Assembly (NCBI GenBank): GCA_021732785.1
Contig: JAKFUG010000012.1
Location: 1 to 64,000 of the forward strand
Length of the DNA stretch: 64,000 bases
Direction: 5' to 3'
Origin: Planctomycetaceae bacterium
GTDB lineage: Bacteria; Planctomycetota; Planctomycetia; Planctomycetales; Planctomycetaceae
The notes under the pieces are model-generated. The model was not told the DNA's origin. It was given only the letters and a program-made list of their open reading frames with translations, and did not search any database. The position numbers and the translations under genes are program-made. Shown here piece after piece: positions 4,259-15,143 of this stretch (position 1 is the stretch's first letter; every line of letters begins with the position of its first letter).

Positions 4259-5506
4259 TTACTTCGTGACGAATTTGTAAAGGCCCTGGCCCGTCGGCGA
4301 CACGACGTTGAAGTAGACTTCACCTTCCGCGTCTTCACCATAGCTGATGACCTGCAGCGGATTGCCTTCATAGGCGATGCTGCGGTTCTCGGTGACCGTC
4401 TTCGTCTTCGCGTCGTACTTCAGTGCCCAGAGTTTGCTGCTGACGTAATCGCCATACAGGTAATACCCGGCGAGTTCCGGCACTTTCTTGCCGCGGTAGA
4501 CGTGGCCGCCGGTGATCGATTTGCCGATGTCGTGATGGTATTCCCAGATCGGTTCAATGAGCGAGGAATTCGTGCCGGCACCGTTGGGGGCGAAGACATG
4601 TTTGCCTTCGCGGAGGTTCCAGCCGTAGTTGCCCCCCTTTTCGATGATGTTGATTTCCTCCCACACGTTCTGACCCACATCGGCCGCCCACAGATCGCCG
4701 GTGGTCCGATCGAACGACATCCGCCACACATTGCGTAGACCCAGGGCATACACTTCCGGCCGCGCGATTTCCTGCTTGCCCCCCGCGGCGATCACGTTGA
4801 CGTACGGGTTGTCCTTGGGGATGCTGTACGCCAAGCCCTTGTCCTGCTTGTCGACATCGATCCGCAGGATCTTGCCCAGCGGCGTTTGCAGGTTCTGCGC
4901 GTTGTTGAGCGGATCGTTCCCCGCGCCGCCATCGCCGAGAGCCACGTACAAGTAACCATCCGGACCGAAGCAGATGGTGCCCCCTTTGTGATTCCAGAAG
5001 GGGTGCGTCAGACGGAAGAGTTCCTTTTCCGATGCCGGATCGGCCTTGTTCGGGTCGTCCTTCGAGACGGTGAACCGCGAGATGACGGTCGTTAGCAGCG
5101 GCTCTTTCGTCGAGTAGAAGACGAAGAACTGGCCGTTCTCCTTGTACTTCGGATGGAACGCCATCCCGAGCAGACCCTGTTCGTTTTCGTTGTCCTTGTA
5201 GAGCACTTTCTTCGAGATGTCGAGGAAGATCGACGTCGACTGGGCTCCGACCTTGTTCGTGAAAACGTGGACTTGCCCCTGCTGCTGCGGAACGAACAGC
5301 CGGTTCGAACCATCCCCCGCGTGGGTGAGCAGGATCGGCCGCAACGGCGATGGCTTCCCATTGTCGTCCGGTTCCCAGTTCGCGAACTTCAATTCCGGAA
5401 ACGCCAGCACCGGCTTCACCGGCAACGGCGACGTATTCACCTCCGCCGCCATCGCAGTGAGACTCACGAGGCACAGCGCAACCAACCCGTATCCCAGACG
5501 CATCAT
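4259..5506 (-). CDS. Exported PQQ-dependent sugar dehydrogenase (glucose/sorbosone dehydrogenase family)
   Basis: 415 residues. It starts at 5506 with an ATGATG that overlaps the TGA of the upstream Uma2 gene (ATGA), and an SD-like AGAAAGAAG lies before it. A signal peptide (MMRLGYGLVALCLVSLTAMA) precedes a six-bladed propeller. Recognisable family elements are FVPQQQGQVHVF, EQGLLGMAFHPKY, HKGGTICFGPDGYLYVALGDG, RPEVYALGLRNVWRMSFDR, DVGQNVWEEINIIEKGGNYGW and SITGGHVYRGKKVPELAGYY. Soluble glucose dehydrogenase and related aldose dehydrogenases oxidise sugars with PQQ and calcium in the periplasm. Substrate here is not predictable. Coupling to the Uma2 gene suggests co-transcription rather than shared function. 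Confidence 0.85.
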   Translation of the reverse strand: MMRLGYGLVALCLVSLTAMAAEVNTSPLPVKPVLAFPELKFANWEPDDNGKPSPLRPILLTHAGDGSNRLFVPQQQGQVHVFTNKVGAQSTSIFLDISKKVLYKDNENEQGLLGMAFHPKYKENGQFFVFYSTKEPLLTTVISRFTVSKDDPNKADPASEKELFRLTHPFWNHKGGTICFGPDGYLYVALGDGGAGNDPLNNAQNLQTPLGKILRIDVDKQDKGLAYSIPKDNPYVNVIAAGGKQEIARPEVYALGLRNVWRMSFDRTTGDLWAADVGQNVWEEINIIEKGGNYGWNLREGKHVFAPNGAGTNSSLIEPIWEYHHDIGKSITGGHVYRGKKVPELAGYYLYGDYVSSKLWALKYDAKTKTVTENRSIAYEGNPLQVISYGEDAEGEVYFNVVSPTGQGLYKFVTK

Positions 5507-6231
5507 CGTGACTTCTTTCTCTTGGCGGAATCGGACTCTGTTTTCGGTTTGCATTCCAAACGGTATCGATCATACCCATGCGAGGAGCGCATTCGGGTCA
5601 TTTTCACGTGACAGGTAAAGACGGTGGATTTCATCCACCCTTCGGCGTCGACACGGCGCGCCACGAAGCCGGTTCGACCGCGGCCATAGACTTGAAAGCG
5701 CAAGTCTTCTCCCAGTGCGTCAACCAGCCAGAACTCGGTAACACCTGCCGCGAAGTATGCCTTTGGTAGCTTCAAGGTATCTTTCTTGATTGAACCCCGA
5801 CTCAAGATTTCCGCGACCATGTCGACGCCGCCGACCAATTCGATACCGGAATCCTTCCGTCTTTTCTTCGCAGGCGTGATTGTAACCTGACCGGATTCGA
5901 TGCGACGATGCGACACGAAGACGACGTCCGGTTCGGCGGACAGTCCGGCCTCGACAGAAGAAACGCGGGTGCTATCACCGAGAACGATTCCCATATCGTC
6001 CTCAAGAAGACGGTTGGCGATAACACGCAAAATCTCCACCTTGGGAGTTCCGTGGGTAAAGATTTCTTCTGGCGACATGTCGATCTCGATACGGCCTTGA
6101 ACGAAGTCGATCCGACACGATTCAGGAAATTCTGGTGAGAAGGCCCAGCGACGGAACGACCTCAAGCTCCCGATTCCCTCGGGAATCTCGATATCGGTCT
6201 CCGTTTCAGAATTGAGCACATGCGCATACAT
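5503..6231 (-). CDS. Uma2 family endonuclease (DUF820), first copy
   Basis: 242 residues. The Uma2 fold is a PD-(D/E)XK nuclease. Visible elements are GRIEIDMSPEE near residue 47, the catalytic-type SAEPDVVFV, MVAEILSRGS with K and the downstream YFAAGVTEFWLVD. The C-terminal tail is basic (KRKKSR). It is a paralogue of the gene at 7172-7876, sharing the opening SLxxFRRWAFSxxFP and the IEIDMSPE motif. Uma2 genes are hugely expanded in cyanobacteria and planctomycetes, and their biological role is unsettled. The stop overlaps the next gene's start by four bases (ATGA). Confidence 0.85.
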   Translation of the reverse strand: MYAHVLNSETETDIEIPEGIGSLRSFRRWAFSPEFPESCRIDFVQGRIEIDMSPEEIFTHGTPKVEILRVIANRLLEDDMGIVLGDSTRVSSVEAGLSAEPDVVFVSHRRIESGQVTITPAKKRRKDSGIELVGGVDMVAEILSRGSIKKDTLKLPKAYFAAGVTEFWLVDALGEDLRFQVYGRGRTGFVARRVDAEGWMKSTVFTCHVKMTRMRSSHGYDRYRLECKPKTESDSAKRKKSR

Positions 6232-6347: not shown

Positions 6348-7142
6348 CTACTTAACGGACCGCTTCTTCGTTCTGTCCGGTTCAATCTTCAAGAGTGCTT
6401 TGATGAGGCTCTTATTAAATTTGGAAGCGTCGTCGGCAAAGTGCGCGCGGCGGTGACAATTCGGACAAAGCGCGATCACGTGTGCGGGATGATCTGGACC
6501 CTCATCGGAGAGTTGATGAGTGTGGTGTGGTTCCAAATAGGGACTTCCATCTGCCTTGTCGAAAGGAGCGTGGACATCGCAGCCTTCACAAATCCCGCCA
6601 GCACGCAATAGCACATATCGCTTAATTGCAGTGGAACGAACGCGAAAAATAGTCTCCCGCACACTCGCTGGAGCCGAGGGCTTTTCAGCCAGAAGAGCCG
6701 CGGCTCGAAGCTCGTCCATGTTTGCCTCCAACAAGGCTTCGTCGTCCAAGTCGGACAAACCCCTCTTTCGACGATCATTGATCAGCTTCCGAATTTGTTC
6801 AGAAACTTCCGCACCAGGTGTCGTGATGCTGCGGGGGTAATTCGCCCATGTGAGAAATGGAATGTGACGACAGATTATCCCGAGCGAAATTGCTGGCTGA
6901 ATTCGTGCGAAATTCGTGATTTGCGCACCATATCTGTTAGGCCGATCTTTTCGCAGTTTTGTCCGAGAATTTACGACCGCAGTAGCGTAGAAGCCATAGC
7001 CGGCAATGTAGATAACGACTTCGTCGTCTGGAACAGCCCCTTTCGGTACAGTCCATAGTGTTGCGTCACCTCGCGACGCTTTGTCGAGAAAGGCCTTATC
7101 GCGGTTGCTAACGCCACCTTGAATGACATGCAGATTTGACAT
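6348..7142 (-). CDS. HNH endonuclease with N-terminal EVE/PUA-like domain
   Basis: About 264 residues from the ATG at 7142; a GTG at 7217 would add 25 residues and overlap the upstream Uma2 gene. The N-terminal third (ATLWTVPKGAVPDDEVVIYI then GFYATAVV, then LTWANYPRSITTPGAEV) resembles EVE-like modified-base-binding domains. The C-terminal half is a clear HNH module: CEGC, LEPHHTHQLSDEG, VIALCPNCHRRAHF, with two CxxC zinc-knuckle pairs and the HH/H/H catalytic pattern. EVE-HNH fusions include modification-dependent restriction enzymes; assignment to that group is an inference. It is flanked on both sides by Uma2 genes on the same strand. No clear ribosome binding site was seen. Confidence 0.8.
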   Translation of the reverse strand: MSNLHVIQGGVSNRDKAFLDKASRGDATLWTVPKGAVPDDEVVIYIAGYGFYATAVVNSRTKLRKDRPNRYGAQITNFARIQPAISLGIICRHIPFLTWANYPRSITTPGAEVSEQIRKLINDRRKRGLSDLDDEALLEANMDELRAAALLAEKPSAPASVRETIFRVRSTAIKRYVLLRAGGICEGCDVHAPFDKADGSPYLEPHHTHQLSDEGPDHPAHVIALCPNCHRRAHFADDASKFNKSLIKALLKIEPDRTKKRSVK

Positions 7143-7171
7143 GATGACAAAATCGATACTTGATCGATCCT

Positions 7172-7876
7172 TCAAAGCTGATGTGAAAATCCCCGCATTT
7201 CCAGCGAATAGTCCCACATCGGCTTGCGGATTCGTTTCCTCGTCAGACGCAAGCGGGCCTGCATGACCGAGGATTCGCGGAAGCCTTCGGCGTCGGGCAC
7301 CGTCGGCACAAATGCTGCTTCACCCCGTGAGTAGATGTCGAATTGCAGATTTCGTCCGCGACCGTCGACCAGCCAGTATTCACGGACCCCGGCGGCGAAA
7401 TAACGTTCGGGGAGCACGACCGTGTCTTTCTGCACCGAGGAATCACTGACGAACTCCACTACCACATCGGGAGGGCCGACGATTTCGATCATCCCGTCAT
7501 CGCTTTTAGACTTCGATGGTCGAAACTTGACGCGGCCACTTTCCACGGAAGCCCGCGAAACAAACACGGCATCCGGTTCCACCGACAGACCGGCTTTCGC
7601 ACAATGCACGCGGCTGCGATCGCTGAAGACCCAACCGAGCCGGTGCTGCTTCACCCAGTGATGCAGCACCGACGTCAACTCCGTCTTCGGGAAGTTGTGA
7701 TTGAACAGGTCTTCGGGTGACATGTCGATCTCGATTGCGTCCCGAACGTAATCGATCCGCCCGGTGGTTGGGAAACGATCGGAAAACGCCCACCGCCGAA
7801 ACCGCGCGAGCGAGTCGATCCTCTCGGGGATTGCCACCGTCGGTGTTTCTAGCGCGTTGAATTGAATGGTAGACAT
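7172..7876 (-). CDS. Uma2 family endonuclease (DUF820), second copy
   Basis: 234 residues. Same fold as the copy at 5503-6231: SLARFRRWAFSDRFP, AIEIDMSPEDLF, the catalytic-type SVEPDAVFVSR, DVVVEFVSDSS, then YFAAGVREYWLVD. All expected PD-(D/E)XK positions appear intact. It is followed 29 bases later by the HNH gene, so the three genes may be one transcript. The two Uma2 copies are clearly related but diverged throughout, so the duplication is not recent. Confidence 0.85.
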   Translation of the reverse strand: MSTIQFNALETPTVAIPERIDSLARFRRWAFSDRFPTTGRIDYVRDAIEIDMSPEDLFNHNFPKTELTSVLHHWVKQHRLGWVFSDRSRVHCAKAGLSVEPDAVFVSRASVESGRVKFRPSKSKSDDGMIEIVGPPDVVVEFVSDSSVQKDTVVLPERYFAAGVREYWLVDGRGRNLQFDIYSRGEAAFVPTVPDAEGFRESSVMQARLRLTRKRIRKPMWDYSLEMRGFSHQL

Positions 7877-8910: not shown

Positions 8911-8962
8911 GCACGTTCCAGCACCCCGGCTGCTGCGGAGCAGCCGGGGTGCTGGAACGTGC
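8911..8962. repeat. Perfect 24-bp-arm palindrome
   Basis: A 52-base perfect inverted repeat: arms at 8911-8934 and 8939-8962 around the loop GCGG, beginning GCACGTTCCAGCACCCCGG. It begins one base beyond the stop codon of the minus-strand membrane gene (8964). It may serve as a terminator or be a REP-like element; there is no T-tract on the minus strand. Confidence 0.75.
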
Positions 8963-8963
8963 G

Positions 8964-9662
8964 TCAATCTTTGTCCGATCCCAGATACGAACGATCCAAT
9001 CCGAGAATAATCCGCAAGGAAATGGCGGCGATTCCCAGTGCGATTCCCAGCATGATCGCCCGTTGCCCGGCGGTGGTGAAGACCGCCATGATCACGCCCG
9101 TCATCCCCGGAAAGGTGAGCGCGGACATCGATTCCGGCACCCACGAGGTCAACACGGTTCCCGCATAAGTCCGCCCGAGGAGCACGATGAAAGCCGTTAC
9201 GAGCAACAGCATGGCTTCGACATTCTTCGCCCGGAATGCCCGGAATGCTGCCGACGCCACGTAGAACGCCAGCAGGGAAAACATCGTCGCGATAATCGGC
9301 GACATGATGTACTCGTACAGCCACCACAGGCCGCCTCCTTCTTCCAGATAGTTTCCCGACCACGCGTAATCGGGAAACTTCTCGGCCGCGGGGACGCCCC
9401 ATTTCGTCATCCCTACGAACACGGTGACCAGAAACGCCACTAGCGTAACCGCCGAGAATCCCCAGCCCGCCTGTTGATGAGCGACCTTTTTCAAATGGTG
9501 CAGGCACAGGTTCGTGCCGCCGATGAGAAACGCGATGGCGGCGAGAATCGTAAACCAGATCTCGGCGGTCTGCTGCCACTTCTGCGCGGGCGGAATGAAG
9601 AACGCGATGATCATCACCGTGCCGCTGACCCCGGCAATCACGGCGGGAATGGTTCGTTTCAT
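8964..9662 (-). CDS. Multi-pass membrane protein, third gene of an uncharacterised cassette
   Basis: 232 residues from the ATG at 9662, whose A is shared with the TGA of the upstream gene (TGATG), so translation is probably coupled. Hydrophobic segments are visible at about 7-23 (VIAGVSGTVMIIAFFI), 31-50, 62-82, 112-134, 143-163 and 187-215, giving six or so membrane spans. A loop GVPAAEKFPDYAWSG...GGGLWWLYEYIMSP lies between spans 3 and 4. No known family is recognised. It is the last gene of three with almost no spacing, so it is likely a subunit of one membrane complex with the two proteins encoded upstream. Confidence 0.75.
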   Translation of the reverse strand: MKRTIPAVIAGVSGTVMIIAFFIPPAQKWQQTAEIWFTILAAIAFLIGGTNLCLHHLKKVAHQQAGWGFSAVTLVAFLVTVFVGMTKWGVPAAEKFPDYAWSGNYLEEGGGLWWLYEYIMSPIIATMFSLLAFYVASAAFRAFRAKNVEAMLLLVTAFIVLLGRTYAGTVLTSWVPESMSALTFPGMTGVIMAVFTTAGQRAIMLGIALGIAAISLRIILGLDRSYLGSDKD

Positions 9663-10957
9663 CACGCGCCCCCTTTGTTGAGAATCACTTCGCGGAAGTA
9701 GTGGTACGCCTCGGCCGCCACTCCTTGCGGCTGAAACACCGTCCAAGTTGCCAGGAGGCAACCGCCCAGCAGCAGCACCGTGGCGAGGACTTTGCCCGCG
9801 TCCTGTCCCTTCAGCGTGCCGAGCTGCTGCGGTTCGCGCGACAGATATGCCGACGCTGCGAAGAGTTCTTCACCGAGCAAGGTGTAATCACACGCGGCGA
9901 CGAAGAACGGCAACTGCGACGCTTCGGCGGTCCCGGCGATCTGAATCGCACCGACGCCATTACCGGTTTCGGCCAACAGCAATGATTCTGCGAAGAACTT
10001 GCCGAGGAAGAAACACGCGGCCGGTTTTTCGCGCGTCATCCAGCCGCACACATAGGCGACGTAACCGAATTGCTCGTCGGTAACATAGTAGATGCGGTCG
10101 GGATTGAAGCTCTCGGGGCGACCGGCTTCGAGGCATGCCGCTTCGCAACTTTCCTGAGCGGCCGTCATCACCAGCGACCGCGACGTCGGCACTTCGAGCG
10201 CCGCATCGTATTCGGCCGCCGTCTTGGCCACCTTCGACAACACCGTCAGCCCGGCGACCGTTTCGATTTGATCGAGATCCATAATCCCCGGCACGAACAA
10301 CATCGGCCGGCCCATTTCGGTCGCGCGACCAACGGCTTCATCGAGCGCGGTGAGCGCGGCAATCGGCCGGACATAAATCGACGCCCCCCGCTTGGCAAGC
10401 TCGGTGCAGACGATCACCGAACCGCACACAAACGCCACAATCGCCCCGAACCACAACCGCCGAGTGTCGACCCATTGCATGATCGGTTGGAATGGCTCCG
10501 CGGTCTCCGCCAATGGGGATGTCGCTCCCTCGGGACCGAGCGCGACCACACGGTAGCGATACTTCTTGCCGGGTTCGCAATTGGTATCTTCGAACGTTTC
10601 ATTCTTTGCGGAAACCTTCGCAATCGACGACCATTCGCCCCCGTCGACCTGTCGAAAAATCTCACACTGAATCGCGCGTTCCGGTTGATCGTCCGGTGAT
10701 AACGACCAAGTGACAATCAGCCCATTCGCGGCATCGTTCGGACGGTCTTTCACGACGAGGTTCGTCGGCGGAGCAACTTCGGTGGCAGAGGCTGATGAGG
10801 TCGAGAACGCAGTCCAACAGAGAAATCCGAAGCACGAAATCCGAAATCCGAAGGAAATCCAAACTGGTAAATTCGAAACATGCGGAATCCACATTTTCCC
10901 CTTGGGATTTCGTGCTTTCTTCGGATTTCGGATTTCGGATTTCGGACTTCTCATCAT
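9662..10957 (-). CDS. Membrane protein with fibronectin type III domain (DUF6754-like), second gene of the cassette
   Basis: 431 residues. The start ATGATG follows the TAG of the upstream gene with no gap, and an SD-like AAGGA sits in the end of that gene. Residues about 1-52 are largely encoded by a dispersed repeat (10822-10950) that supplies the hydrophobic signal-like stretch VWISFGFRISCFGFLCW. An FnIII domain follows (APPTNLVVKDRPND to about 155), then a membrane span (LWFGAIVAFVCGSVIVC), a long cytoplasmic-type domain (ALTALDEAVGRATEMGRPML, SRSLVMTAAQESCEAACLEAG) and a C-terminal span (KVLATVLLLGGCLLATW). The middle domain resembles DUF6754; function unknown. An internal ATG at 10894 with AAGGGG before it is an alternative start. 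Confidence 0.7.
   Translation of the reverse strand: MMRSPKSEIRNPKKARNPKGKMWIPHVSNLPVWISFGFRISCFGFLCWTAFSTSSASATEVAPPTNLVVKDRPNDAANGLIVTWSLSPDDQPERAIQCEIFRQVDGGEWSSIAKVSAKNETFEDTNCEPGKKYRYRVVALGPEGATSPLAETAEPFQPIMQWVDTRRLWFGAIVAFVCGSVIVCTELAKRGASIYVRPIAALTALDEAVGRATEMGRPMLFVPGIMDLDQIETVAGLTVLSKVAKTAAEYDAALEVPTSRSLVMTAAQESCEAACLEAGRPESFNPDRIYYVTDEQFGYVAYVCGWMTREKPAACFFLGKFFAESLLLAETGNGVGAIQIAGTAEASQLPFFVAACDYTLLGEELFAASAYLSREPQQLGTLKGQDAGKVLATVLLLGGCLLATWTVFQPQGVAAEAYHYFREVILNKGGA
10822..10950. repeat. Dispersed ATCCGAAAT inverted repeat inside a gene
   Basis: Left arm 10822-10860 contains tandem GAAATCCGAA units. Right arm 10905-10950 contains TTTCGGATTTCGGATTTCGG. The same family lies intergenically at 35099-35252. 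Here it overlaps the first codons of the FnIII membrane gene. Confidence 0.75.
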
Positions 10958-12082
10958 CTATCCTTCGATGAGTTCCACGTTGGCTCGGGGGACCGTGACC
11001 GTTTCGCCGCGCGCGAGCGTGACGGTCACCACGCGGGCTTTGGATTCGGACGCTAACACCGCGGGTTCGGAGGGCATCGTCGCGACGGTCCCAAGGGAGC
11101 CGAACTCGGGTTCACGGATCACGCGCACTGGAGCGCCAATGACGAGTTGGCCTTCTTCGCGATCCTTAATGGCCGTCTTTGCCACCGGCGCATCGACGGG
11201 AATGAGAATTTCCGGCCGCAACACACCCGCGCGAATCTGTGTAGTGCCGTTGACCGAAGCGTGATGTCCCGCATGGCTGCGCAGGAGATCGAAGGTGCGG
11301 TGGGCCATCGCGATGTCGCCGAAGCCTTCGGTGATGATGATCGACAGACCGATGGCTTCGTTGCCGGTGATGGCGACGCCGAGATCGTAACCGAGAATCT
11401 CGCGGAGGTCCTGGTCATCGATTCCCCCTGTCACCACCGCAGCGACGCCGAGTTGCTGGGCTTTCCGGATCGCCGCCTGGGTCACCCGTCGGCCGCCGAT
11501 GATGATCTTGCCGCGGAGATCACCGGTCAGCTTGTCTTCGTGCAGGTCTTCGTCGTGTTTCGCACACACCGGATGAATGACGCCATACGCTTCACCGCCG
11601 ATGCCGAAGATCCCTTGAATCACCGCGGCGTCGGCTTCGATCACGGCTCCCTCGTTCGGCAGCACCTCGACCACCGTCCCCGTGAGATAGGCCCGCACCT
11701 GCACCCGCAGCGGCTCACCGCGGACGATCATCATGCCGGTGACTGTGGAAATCGATTCCACGGTGCCACCAACGGACGATTTCACTTCCGAGGAGAAGAG
11801 TCCGAACAGCCCTTTCGATTGCGCAACGATCTGTCCGACAGAGACAACATCTCCGGCTTTGATCAGCAGATGTTTCGCCAGTTCCCCCGCTGGGACACCG
11901 AGCAGTTTGGCGACATTCACCGGCGTCGCATCCCCCGGCATCGCGGCCTCGGCGATCACCTCTTCGGCCCGCACCTTCACGCCGACCTTGACGCGCACGT
12001 CCCCCGGAATGGGCAACACCCGGCGACAACGCCAGCGCGTCCACGGGGTGACCTTCAATCCGGGGGTGTAGCCTTGTGCCAT
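10958..12082 (-). CDS. Barrel-sandwich/hybrid-domain protein, first gene of the cassette
   Basis: 374 residues, no signal peptide and no membrane span. The N-terminal half reads like a duplicated biotinyl/barrel-sandwich hybrid domain of the RnfC or KOW type: RRVLPIPGDVRVKVGVKVRAE, LLIKAGDVVSVGQIVAQSKG, SSVGGTVESISTVTGMMIVRG, YLTGTVVEVLPNEGAVIEAD. A middle domain (GKIIIGGRRVTQAAIRKAQQLG, AAVVTGGIDDQDLREILGYD, LSIIITEGFGDIAMAHRTFDLL) looks Rossmann-like. The C-terminus has another beta-barrel (GQLVIGAPVRVIREPEFGSL) ending in an IEG tail. No named family is recognised. The stop abuts the start of the FnIII membrane gene, so the two are almost certainly co-translated. Confidence 0.75.
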   Translation of the reverse strand: MAQGYTPGLKVTPWTRWRCRRVLPIPGDVRVKVGVKVRAEEVIAEAAMPGDATPVNVAKLLGVPAGELAKHLLIKAGDVVSVGQIVAQSKGLFGLFSSEVKSSVGGTVESISTVTGMMIVRGEPLRVQVRAYLTGTVVEVLPNEGAVIEADAAVIQGIFGIGGEAYGVIHPVCAKHDEDLHEDKLTGDLRGKIIIGGRRVTQAAIRKAQQLGVAAVVTGGIDDQDLREILGYDLGVAITGNEAIGLSIIITEGFGDIAMAHRTFDLLRSHAGHHASVNGTTQIRAGVLRPEILIPVDAPVAKTAIKDREEGQLVIGAPVRVIREPEFGSLGTVATMPSEPAVLASESKARVVTVTLARGETVTVPRANVELIEG

Positions 12083-12147: not shown

Positions 12148-12795
12148 TCAGTTTGCATTGGAAGAGAGGACCTTGATCAATATTTTCCGAAAGCGGACGC
12201 CGCTGTGGGATTGTAAGAGAATCGGGCCTGGTTGATCTTCATCCCGGTCGATGGCACCCGCTGTGGGCTCTTTGAGTTTGGCAGTACGGATAACAGCGAT
12301 GCGGTTGATCATGACACTGACACGATCACCTTTGATTCGTACGGAAAGTTCATTCCAAGTGTTCGCGCCTTTGTAGGTGTTCACAACGCGATCAACGGGG
12401 ATTTGCCCCCAGATGGCTCCCGTTTTCCGCAACAGACTCGATTCCGAGCCATCGAGCAATTGCACTTCATACCGGCCCCGCAAATAGACTCCCGAATTGC
12501 CCTCTTTCGGCAAGTTAAACTCGAGGCTCAAATCGAAGTCTCGGTACTTATCCTTGGTCATCAAATTTGCCCCGCGCTGGCCGTTCGCCAATACTCCCCC
12601 TAGTGCTTTCCAATTGGTTATTTCGCGACCATCTTCAGATTGCCACAAGTCCAATTTGTCTTTGAGCAAATCTACGGACTCACTATCTTTGGGATCAATT
12701 GAAGGAAGTCCGATATCGTCCTCAGCGAAGGCTGACGAATTTAGACACGCGAGGAATAGGAACACAGTGAACGGTTTCAGACAGTTTGTTTTCAC
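12148..12795 (-). CDS. Exported DUF1080 (3-keto-disaccharide hydrolase-like) protein
   Basis: 215 residues from a GTG at 12795; an ATG at 12846 would put 17 charged residues before the signal peptide. The signal is LKPFTVFLFLACLNSSAFA. The rest is a concanavalin-like DUF1080 domain: WQSEDGREITNWKALGGVLA, YRDFDLSLEFNLPKEGNSGVYLRG-type strand, YEVQLLDG, GAIWGQIPV, WNELSVRIKGDRVSVMINR and GPILLQSHSGVRFRKI. Family members bind or hydrolyse oxidised disaccharides outside the cytoplasm; many paralogues exist per planctomycete genome. It is separated from the cassette downstream by 65 bases. Confidence 0.8.
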   Translation of the reverse strand: MKTNCLKPFTVFLFLACLNSSAFAEDDIGLPSIDPKDSESVDLLKDKLDLWQSEDGREITNWKALGGVLANGQRGANLMTKDKYRDFDLSLEFNLPKEGNSGVYLRGRYEVQLLDGSESSLLRKTGAIWGQIPVDRVVNTYKGANTWNELSVRIKGDRVSVMINRIAVIRTAKLKEPTAGAIDRDEDQPGPILLQSHSGVRFRKILIKVLSSNAN

Positions 12796-12875
12796 GATGG
12801 CTTTCGACTTTCTCTTGTCGCTGTGAGGTGGAACTCGCGGACTCATTCCACCCTACAATGATTCTGGTTGAAAGC

Positions 12876-12903
12876 ACCCGTCGCTTGCGCTTCGGGCTCG
12901 TCA
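12876..12903. repeat. Half-copy of the GCGCTTCGGGCTCG repeat
   Basis: The run CGCTTGCGCTTCGGGCTCGT matches one arm of the inverted repeat at 40139-40214. It lies just beyond the glmL-like stop codon. Confidence 0.45.
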
Positions 12904-14724
12904 CGGATACATCTCCACGACGCGGTTCCATTGCTGCACCTGTTGTTGACACGCGCGGCGGTCCTCGGGCAATGTAAGCGATCTTCCACGCGCGTCGAAG
13001 ATCACGCCGACGGTGCCGCCGTGGATGATCGCTTCGTGACGTTTGCCGGGGCCGCTGCCGACGTCGAAACCGCGAGACGGTTCCAGCACGACAGTGGCAG
13101 TTTCACCGATACCGAGCGGCCAGTACAGGAGTTCGCCAAACTTCGCTTCGCCCAGGGCCTGAATACCGCCGGTGAATTGATATTTGCAGCACGGTTGCCC
13201 CGGCTTACCGGTTCCTTTCGGGGCGATGCACGTGCCGAGGTAGATGAGGCAGTCGCGCTGGAAGACTTCCATTGCCGCCCGGGGGTGGACCTGCGCGAGG
13301 ACGCCGAGGTGGGGCATCATGAAGATGCTGTCCTTGGCGAGTCGCGTGATCCCTTCCGGCTCGAAGGCGTCGATGAGCATCATCGCCGTCTGCACCATCC
13401 GCGGGGCGTGCGACAACACGCCGCCGGACGCGACCAACAGGTCGAGCCGCATGTTGTCGATGAGCGAGGATTGCCCGGTCTGCTGCGCGAACGCATCGCC
13501 GACCGTGCGCTGCTTCTGCACGCCGGACAGTCCCACCGCGAACTGCCGGTGCTGCACGTACGCCAGCCGCAGGGCTTCGCGCGAGACCGCCTGTTCGAAC
13601 ATCAGGGCATCGAGCGTCTGCGGGATCGTCGTCGGGCGGATCATCTTGTTCTTCACGCGATTCCGCAGCTCGCGCTCGTCGCAATCAAACGGCACCCATC
13701 GCAAAATCTTTGGCAGCGTCGCTTCCGCACAGACATTCGAGATCGAATAACTCATGCCGAGATTCGCGCTCACCGTCCGGTTGAAGGCCCCGTCGAACAC
13801 GCTGAAGACGTCGGTCGTCGCGCCGCCGATGTCGACACCGACAACGTTGATGTTGTCCTGTTTCGCGATCGTTTGCAGAATCTCGCCCACCGCACCGGGC
13901 GTCGGCATGATTGGGGCATCGGCCCAGGCGATCAGCTTTTCATAACCCGGCGCGTGAGCCATCACGTGTTCGAGGAACAGGTCGTGAATGGCATCCCGCG
14001 CGGGGCCGAGGTTTTCCCGCTCCATCGTTGGCCGCAGGTTGGGGACGATCGACAGTTCGACTTCGTGCTTGAAGACGTCGGCCACAAGATTGGCCGCGTC
14101 TTTGTTCCCCGCATAAATCACCGGCATGCGGTATTGCCCGCCGAACCGTGGCTGCGGCTTCGCGGGGGCGATGAGTTCCGCAATCTGGACGACATGCGAA
14201 GTCGTGCCGCCGTCGGTGCCACCGGAGACGAGAATCATATCGGGCCGCAGATCGCGGATGCGCTGAATCTGTTCGTGCGGCTTGCGCTTGTCGTTCGAGG
14301 CGAGCACATCCATCACGATCGCCCCGGCCCCGAGCGCGGCACGCTGCGCGCTCGCGCCGGTCATCTCGCGGACGACCCCGGCGACGAGCATCTGCAACCC
14401 GCCACCGGCGCTGGAGGTCGAAATGTAGATGTCGCAGCCATCTTTACCATTGCTGGGACGAATCAGCACGCCGTTTTCGTCAACCAGTTTTCGACCCGCG
14501 AGTTCGCCGACTTCGGTGGCCGCGTTGATGACGCCGACGGTCACGTCCGCGGCGGGTTCTTCGACAGTGGTCGGAGCTTCCCCACGATAAGTTTGCCGAT
14601 AGGTCCCATCGATCTTTTCAATGAGAATGGCTTTGGTCGTCGTGCTGCCGCAGTCGGTGGCGAGAATCACGTTGAGCGATTCCGGATCGATGGGCTTCTT
14701 CGGCGTCGCGGGCGGGGTGGTCAT
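12901..14724 (-). CDS. glmL: Glutamate mutase L (GlmL/MutL-like) ATPase
   Basis: 607 residues. The protein belongs to the acetate/sugar kinase-Hsp70-actin superfamily: phosphate-1 motif LATDCGSTTTKAILIEK near residue 22, CDIYISTSSAGGGLQMLVAG, LVSGGTDGGTTSHVVQIAEL, and a second phosphate motif VVGVDIGGATTDVFSVF near 290. GlmL is found with B12-dependent glutamate mutase genes and is thought to act as an assembly or reactivation factor, but no mutase subunit is in this window. Start: ATG overlapping the upstream TGA (ATGA) with GGGAGG nine bases before. It is co-translated with the 140-residue protein upstream. A distinct cellular role in planctomycetes is possible. Confidence 0.85.
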   Translation of the reverse strand: MTTPPATPKKPIDPESLNVILATDCGSTTTKAILIEKIDGTYRQTYRGEAPTTVEEPAADVTVGVINAATEVGELAGRKLVDENGVLIRPSNGKDGCDIYISTSSAGGGLQMLVAGVVREMTGASAQRAALGAGAIVMDVLASNDKRKPHEQIQRIRDLRPDMILVSGGTDGGTTSHVVQIAELIAPAKPQPRFGGQYRMPVIYAGNKDAANLVADVFKHEVELSIVPNLRPTMERENLGPARDAIHDLFLEHVMAHAPGYEKLIAWADAPIMPTPGAVGEILQTIAKQDNINVVGVDIGGATTDVFSVFDGAFNRTVSANLGMSYSISNVCAEATLPKILRWVPFDCDERELRNRVKNKMIRPTTIPQTLDALMFEQAVSREALRLAYVQHRQFAVGLSGVQKQRTVGDAFAQQTGQSSLIDNMRLDLLVASGGVLSHAPRMVQTAMMLIDAFEPEGITRLAKDSIFMMPHLGVLAQVHPRAAMEVFQRDCLIYLGTCIAPKGTGKPGQPCCKYQFTGGIQALGEAKFGELLYWPLGIGETATVVLEPSRGFDVGSGPGKRHEAIIHGGTVGVIFDARGRSLTLPEDRRACQQQVQQWNRVVEMYP

Positions 14725-15143
14725 GCGCGTTCGCCTCCCACCACCGGTTCGCGGGCTTCATTCGCGGCTTGCAGACTCGACACGACGAACTCCACGCCGC
14801 CGGGTCTTTCCAGCAAATCGGCGAGGATCTTTAATCCCGCCGCATTCGTGACCGCTGCGAACCACGGTTCCACAAACCGCAGGGCCTGCCCGCCGAGACC
14901 ACCGAGCGGCCGCGTCGATTCGAGCATCACCAGCGCAGGTAGCGTCATCCCCCGCCGGGCAATTTCTTTGGCCACACGTTCGACCAGTTCGCGCTCGTCG
15001 ATCGTCGGCGAAAAGCTCTCCGCTGACTCCACTGCAAACGCATGCCGCAGCCAGTTCCGCAATCCGCCCGCCTCGACAGGAACGACATTCTCACGACACC
15101 GCAGAATACCAACTCGCCCAGCGAATGGCGATGAAACGGACAT
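14721..15143 (-). CDS. Small hypothetical protein coupled to glmL
   Basis: 140 residues, no signal or strong membrane span. The central stretch LPALVMLESTRPLGGLGGQA followed by LRFVEPWFAAVTNAAGLK is amphipathic and might lie on a membrane or protein surface. It shares ATGA with glmL, which implies a partner protein. The ATG lies directly at the edge of a 106-base palindrome (15144-15249), so there is no ordinary Shine-Dalgarno site. No family was recognised. A role as regulator or adaptor of the GlmL-like ATPase is an inference from coupling only. Confidence 0.65.
   Translation of the reverse strand: MSVSSPFAGRVGILRCRENVVPVEAGGLRNWLRHAFAVESAESFSPTIDERELVERVAKEIARRGMTLPALVMLESTRPLGGLGGQALRFVEPWFAAVTNAAGLKILADLLERPGGVEFVVSSLQAANEAREPVVGGERA

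Follow-up and report, generated by a model that had tools for sequence, protein, structure and literature searches.

What do three adjoining genes of a planctomycete make together, and are they the whole of the system to which they belong? The genes lie on the minus strand of contig JAKFUG010000012.1 (assembly GCA_021732785.1, Planctomycetaceae bacterium), whose positions 1 to 64,000 were analysed and are called the window here. A reading of the DNA letters made before any database was searched (the sequence-only reading) had proposed that the three, named P1, P2 and P3 below, form an almost gapless membrane cassette whose products build one complex. Comparison across genomes now leads us to hold that P1, P2 and P3 are, on balance, probably subunits of one ATP-driven inner-membrane complex, known here from genes and single-chain models, together with at least three partners: MutL, c2 and c4. 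The complex would usually include c6 and sometimes c7. This reading is favoured because the gene order is conserved, the families co-occur, MutL is found fused to P1, and all six genes are retained in a genus (g2) in which the operon is broken up. The proteins concerned are listed below, where MutL, c6, c2 and c4, like c7, are partner families.

10958-12082, minus strand: P1, a soluble protein of 374 amino acids with a barrel-sandwich-like N-terminal part and a hint of a C-terminal KOW domain, predicted to be a cytosolic partner of MutL
9662-10957, minus strand: P2, 431 amino acids, with FnIII at about residues 60-160, a span at 165-189, DUF6754 at 200-373 and a span at 376-408; start uncertain
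8964-9662, minus strand: P3, a six-span membrane protein of 232 amino acids when read from an internal ATG, without a Pfam match
12901-14724, minus strand: MutL, a GlmL-related ASKHA (actin-fold) ATPase with a C-terminal extension (PF13941, 422.6 bits)
14721-15143, minus strand: c6, a small protein usually immediately upstream of MutL, which falls in one blastp cluster with the c6 of other loci; start uncertain
G000:C14:81315-82163: c2 of the window's genome, adjoining c4
G000:C14:80440-81114: c4 of the window's genome, adjoining c2

The three consecutive minus-strand open reading frames are present as described, and the conserved unit that contains them is larger than three genes. Its recurring order is (c7)-c6-MutL-P1-P2-P3-c2-c4, so that the search for extra genes beside the trio returned MutL, c6, c2, c4 and sometimes c7. 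Two sets of loci were used. For the first, a collection holding 84,980 species genomes was scanned for DUF6754, which gave at least 582 pattern matches, at least 576 of them confirmed; the best 80 were kept and yielded 79 named loci. The second consists of stretches from 40 of the 50 DUF6754-bearing Planctomycetota genomes, plus the window. Gene order was counted from six-frame profile hits because our home-made gene calling is unreliable in some loci (L and G numbers are our handles for loci and genomes): it fails, for example, in L054, L055, L058, L071, L075, L076 and L081, as well as in L098, L105, L114, L131, L142 and L151, and it missed a window gene at 12148-12846. In the 79 named loci, adjacency was found for c6 and MutL in 23/30 cases, MutL and P1 in 37/40, P1 and P2 in 42/47, P2 and P3 in 102/110, P3 and c2 in 99/104, and c2 and c4 in 98/100. 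These loci were picked by P2, which itself carries no weight there; its neighbours are what count. The corresponding figures for the 40 Planctomycetota loci and the window are 19/25, 25/25, 27/30, 42/52, 39/42 and 38/40; they were obtained on the loci from which the profiles had been built. The two sets also overlap, as L043 and L116 appear, from their length and the positions of their genes, to be one contig. Contig ends and true exceptions are among the non-adjacent remainder. Repeated c2 genes, mostly in tandem P2-P3-c2-c4 quartets, were also seen, with two copies in 14 loci and at least three in another ten.

By their record titles, the 79 loci belong to about ten lineages: Planctomycetota groups, Neomarinimicrobiota, Acidobacteria, Zixibacteria, Latescibacteria, Gemmatimonadota, WOR-3/Stahlbacteria, Fermentibacteria/Aegiribacteria, Cloacimonadota and one Deltaproteobacterium. 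Most are metagenome-assembled genomes, and single lineage assignments may be wrong. A named strain, Thalassoglobus neptunius (L116), carries at least P1 and P2. The Chloroflexi, which the sequence-only reading had suggested as a place to look for homologues, appear in no title among these loci, which are the best 80 of at least 576 and some of which are titled only 'bacterium'.

The genes of the set also largely co-occur. Among 199 Planctomycetota genomes searched, P2 (DUF6754) was found in 50, c2 in 51, P1 in 48 and MutL, at E up to 1e-100, in 49; DUF6754 was found in none of 14 control genomes. All 50 P2 genomes contain c2, and the sole c2 genome lacking P2 is G067. P2 and P1 share 45 genomes, with five holding P2 only and three P1 only (in G053, one of these three, the P1 match is a fragment of 28 residues at an edge). 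P2 and MutL likewise share 45 genomes, with five and four discordant, and P1 and MutL share 47, with one and two discordant. P3 and c4 were searched for in 12 close genomes (own, same family and same class), nine of which hold P2, P3, c2, c4, P1 and MutL while three hold none of them. Homologues of the trio are not mostly found apart. Further support comes from the dispersed operon of genus g2. Here, G024 carries MutL, P1-P2, P3, c2 and c4 at five places on one contig, with every member kept and with the c2 reading frame intact on checking. In the window's own genome, no c2 or c4 lies downstream of P3 in the window, and both are present as single copies, side by side, on a separate contig, so this genome holds all six genes, split between two places. 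Retention of genes that are not closely linked is the strongest argument, from sequence, that they function jointly.

Several observations weigh against a single complex. The co-occurrence is significant by Fisher's test (P < 1e-33 over the 199 genomes), a value that ignores shared ancestry. Five of the 50 P2 genomes have no P1 match and five have no MutL. P2 and c2 occur without P1 or MutL in G014, G037, G050 and G145 (76, 95, 90 and 89% complete, respectively), and the reverse, P1 and MutL without P2 or c2, is seen in G153, which is 99% complete. In the available stretch, the WOR-3 and Cloacimonadota loci contain the P2-P3-c2-c4 quartet but no MutL-P1. Conversely, divergent MutL-P1 relatives exist with no P2 adjoining them, fused in L191 and L192 and adjacent in L194 and L195. 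In L192 (9310-11817), the fused relative lies directly upstream of a putative cell-wall gene cluster, which we take from its sequence to be mraZ-rsmH-ftsL-penicillin-binding-protein-murE.

The limit of three genes drawn by the sequence-only reading thus falls in the wrong place: P1 pairs with MutL, whereas P2 and P3 belong with c2 and c4, these units are separable, and the window holds part of the set. What stands of the three-gene proposal is that the trio belongs to one conserved, largely co-occurring unit. MutL-P1 is a module of its own, because fused or adjacent relatives occur without P2 beside them. Separability is also what would be seen if the operon were a conserved collection of envelope proteins, each acting separately and forming no single complex. 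We consider this rather unlikely, given that three loci titled Neomarinimicrobiota (L090, L094 and L091, the last truncated by the end of its contig) encode MutL and P1 as a single fused protein, and that members are kept in genomes where they are unlinked. A second c4-MutL-P1 set was also seen at L199 (8577-12418), on another contig of genome G039.

Within the favoured reading of one complex, MutL and P1 are regarded as the cytosolic engine because MutL keeps ATPase-type motifs and P1 follows it both in gene order and in the fusions. The PF13941 score of MutL is far above the cut-off of 27 bits. Across a 22-row alignment with 68% mean column identity, ATDCGSTTTKA, VDIGGATTD and SGGVLSHAP vary little; these are presumably the ATPase-type motifs. 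At E up to 0.01, MutL matched no sequence of a solved structure. The same actin-fold ATPase domain is present in the GlmL/MutL accessory ATPases of B12 mutases (PF13941, NF040745, TIGR01319), and MutL does match both PF13941 and the GlmL models. It could accordingly be asked whether MutL acts as a chaperone that reactivates a B12-dependent mutase, with the membrane genes a side matter. This is highly improbable. MutL scores below all three GlmL-type NCBIfam cut-offs (218 vs 475 for NF040745, 155.5 vs 204.05 for TIGR01319 and 197.7 vs 600 for the third), has an extra C-terminal stretch and is tied to membrane genes. In addition, glutamate mutase E (PF06368) was found in none of the 43 cassette-bearing genomes searched, out of 50, although the control for this search was weak, with one of 14 genomes matching (Haloferax volcanii), below the cut-off. 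A parallel search for lysine/ornithine aminomutase matched nothing anywhere, controls included, and shows nothing.

P1 is conserved (63% mean column identity over 35 rows) and has the 374 residues first reported; its barrel-sandwich matches in Pfam are all sub-threshold (RnfC_N, 22.9 bits against a cut-off of 25.6; Biotin_lipoyl). The C-terminal KOW hint comes from non-significant matches to SPT5 (E 0.13) and RNA polymerase beta' (E 0.43). A sequence search against solved structures gave nothing significant, the best match being RnfC at E 0.1. This weak likeness, between P1 residues of about 70-115 and the N-terminal barrel-sandwich domain of RnfC/NqrA, is one of two points in favour of a redox or ion-translocating respiratory complex that works with complex I and in which P1 acts like RnfC. 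The other is position: nuo-type genes adjoin the cassette in three cases (the window, L078 and L083) and a lone P1 in L197. Nevertheless, such neighbours were seen in at least three of 120 loci, a lower bound drawn from gene-called proteins, and the conserved order includes no other Rnf or Nqr subunit. RnfC is defined by conserved cysteines for iron-sulfur clusters. P1 has no conserved cysteine column at 90% identity (35 rows), and it scores 16.6 bits with the rnfC subfamily model, for which the cut-off is 245.95. At the same 90% identity, neither P1 nor P3 (64 rows) has a conserved Cys or His, P2 (83 rows) has one Cys, and c2 (73 rows) and c4 (70 rows) have one His each, which in these five proteins is not enough for iron-sulfur or bis-His haem sites; the 22-row MutL alignment retains three Cys and five His. 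On this ground we disfavour a redox complex and consider it improbable; flavin or quinone sites that use neither residue would remain compatible with it. No scanned P1, P2 or P3 exceeded the curated cut-off for any known transporter or subunit of a respiratory complex.

The membrane subunits are less familiar. Among the scanned members of P2, P3, c2 and c4, only P2 has a Pfam match above the cut-off. It is a full member of DUF6754 (PF20539, 384.7 bits against 27, 2.1e-115), from which it shows no difference, and this is a family to which no function has been assigned and whose gene context is not described in the literature searched. The description of P2 as a FnIII protein with DUF6754 and two spans is borne out. 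Its model has a predicted local distance difference test score (pLDDT) of 88.3 and shows FnIII and a span followed by an alpha/beta domain (200-373), with a long span (376-408) at the end. Residues 58-160 superimpose on titin FnIII 3lpw_B (Z 13.7, root-mean-square deviation 2.1 A, 97 residues aligned) and so have the FnIII beta-sandwich fold, even though the Pfam fn3 score of 14.3 bits is under the cut-off of 25. FnIII matches dominated the fold searches, which were thus uninformative on residues 200-373. Similarly, the matches to solved-structure sequences at E < 0.01 are FnIII proteins, followed more weakly by two glycosidase-type chains (E 0.33-0.39). P3 has six hydrophobic segments, in agreement with the six spans proposed; its listed frame is 265 amino acids long from a TTG. 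Searches of P3, c4 and c2 against solved-structure sequences gave nothing significant (best E 0.29, no match and best E 0.93, respectively). P3 of two genera carries an extra stretch of about 375-390 residues between the third and fourth spans (open frames of 608-661 amino acids); in the examples L186 5580-7403 and L189 10512-12326, it is predicted to lie outside the membrane.

The c4 protein is polytopic and c2 has the order span, Rossmann-like domain, span. The c2 model, made from L083, has a pLDDT of 96.0 and runs from a span (16-33) through an alpha/beta domain (43-250) to a long span (256-289). Its fold search pointed to generic Rossmann-type proteins (best Z 9.8 with 1kjn, 3.6 A, 142 residues aligned, with many ties near 8-9), and Foldseek gave three matches at E up to 0.001, by which no listed family is excluded. 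In the models, P2 and c2 appear to share one architecture, namely a span, a helix, a six-stranded alpha/beta domain and a long C-terminal span. Leaving short extra helices aside, both domains read as a helix, six strand-helix repeats and a long span, in the same order. This is a likeness and not proof of relationship. Profile comparison gave P2 and c2 a probability of homology of 1.3% with small alignments and 2.8% with large ones, and the likeness is accordingly one of predicted-element order. For P3 and c4 the values were 0.2% and 0.9%. Moreover, the element order of Rossmann-type domains is common, which weakens the likeness further. By the positive-inside rule, the P2 domain would lie on the cytoplasmic side and the c2 domain on the periplasmic side, because of how lysines and arginines are distributed near the spans. 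In P2 these crowd the domain side, with 5-9 near the domain and 0-1 after the last span; in c2 their density is higher towards the outer ends than beside the domain, but the difference is modest, which tells against a firm assignment.

How might such a complex work? In the mechanism that we propose, P2, P3, c2 and c4 would form the core, with a similar domain on each face, that of P2 inside and that of c2 outside, and P3 and c4 would build a polytopic channel or scaffold. MutL, with P1 as its adaptor, would dock at the cytosolic side of this core. ATP binding and hydrolysis in the actin fold of MutL would then switch P1 and the P2 domain, and the switch would be passed via the spans to c2 and to the external FnIII domain. 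Our best guess is that the complex serves to transfer a substrate across the cell envelope or to do work, perhaps mechanical, on it.

A different source of energy has also been considered, in which an envelope machine is driven by the proton motive force via ExbB-ExbD-TonB and MutL is only regulatory. An ExbB gene is present in at least 10 of the 79 named loci, where 0.8 would be expected: L077 (Gimesia), L119, L136, L148 and L154 (WOR-3/Stahlbacteria), L123, L144 and L153 (Fermentibacteria/Aegiribacteria), L130 (Zixibacteria) and L104, titled only 'bacterium'. The link to ExbB-ExbD is suggestive. However, the cases span only about four lineages (Poisson P for four or more = 0.0099), the expected rate was taken from 26 genomes whose selection was made so as to cover nine of the ten cases, and the gene-called proteins of the remaining 69 loci, from which such neighbour counts are lower bounds, include no ExbB in the available stretch. 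This makes a machine powered in that way unlikely, and an engine in MutL is still preferred.

The details of the window bear on the claim that its genes are almost gapless, and three further features are needed here.

12148-12846, minus strand: a 3-keto-disaccharide hydrolase-like gene between MutL and P1 (PF06439, 114.9 bits)
8911-8962, minus strand: a hairpin directly 3' of the P3 stop, formed by a perfect inverted repeat of 24 bp around a 4-base loop
10818-10957, no strand assigned: a palindromic genome repeat that overlaps the 5' end of P2

The junctions in the P1-P2-P3 run do read as stop/start junctions, GGATAG followed directly by ATGATG and GCGTGATGAAACG. The first of these is less certain than it looks, as P1/P2 abuts the palindromic repeat. 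This element is a palindrome of the ATCCGAAATC type with 45 matches on both genome strands at E up to 0.001, itself included. The real P2 start is uncertain because roughly its first 47 residues, as read, derive from the repeat, residues 1-57 are not confidently modelled, and our codon-usage caller prefers a GTG at 10753. The repeat may contribute part of the P2 signal peptide. At the other end of the run, the hairpin (-55.1 kcal/mol, z -10.61) has no T run and is possibly the end of the transcription unit. The hydrolase-like gene is not part of the conserved unit, because P1 follows MutL directly in 37 of the 40 named cases; a gene-sized gap between MutL and P1 is also present in nine other loci. 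A conserved, secreted-looking protein of about 250 amino acids lies between MutL and P1 in L104, L106, L112 and L130, three of these four being titled Zixibacteria. In the WOR-3/Stahlbacteria loci L119, L136, L148 and L154, the quartet is followed by a conserved run of genes, which from their sequence we take to be DUF4388, roadblock-type and small membrane genes with ExbB, ExbD and TonB. Elsewhere in the window, two related frames (5503-6231 and 7172-7876) flank a third at 6348-7217; the former are putative Uma2-type nucleases and the latter is a putative HNH-like protein.

The claim that no described system has this make-up is upheld by the literature that was searched. Searches for DUF6754, PF20539 and PF13941 gave no mention and a combined query matched nothing, with preprints and most subscription papers outside their reach, and the set is not mentioned in the parts consulted of an essential-gene study of Planctopirus limnophila (PMC10632474), a species that may or may not carry it. 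In make-up we regard the system as categorically new, although both the complex and its mechanism are predictions.

A possible analogy is offered by PilM-PilN-PilO and GspL-GspM, in which an actin-fold cytosolic protein is likewise docked on bitopic inner-membrane proteins; they differ from the conserved set, which has two polytopic subunits and a FnIII/DUF6754 core. Actin-fold proteins are not known to serve in membrane machines other than as scaffolds. We tentatively raise the possibility, which is doubtful at present, that the set represents an ancient class of ATP-driven membrane machine with an actin-fold ATPase as its engine, rather than an ABC, P-type or AAA+ protein, and with a pseudo-symmetric core that has matching Rossmann-type domains on opposite faces. 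If MutL drives the complex, an actin fold would be the engine of a membrane machine. Finally, judged by P2, 50 of the 199 Planctomycetota genomes sampled, or about a quarter, carry the set, and a six- to eight-gene system whose order has been kept in about ten lineages is likely to be costly to lose.

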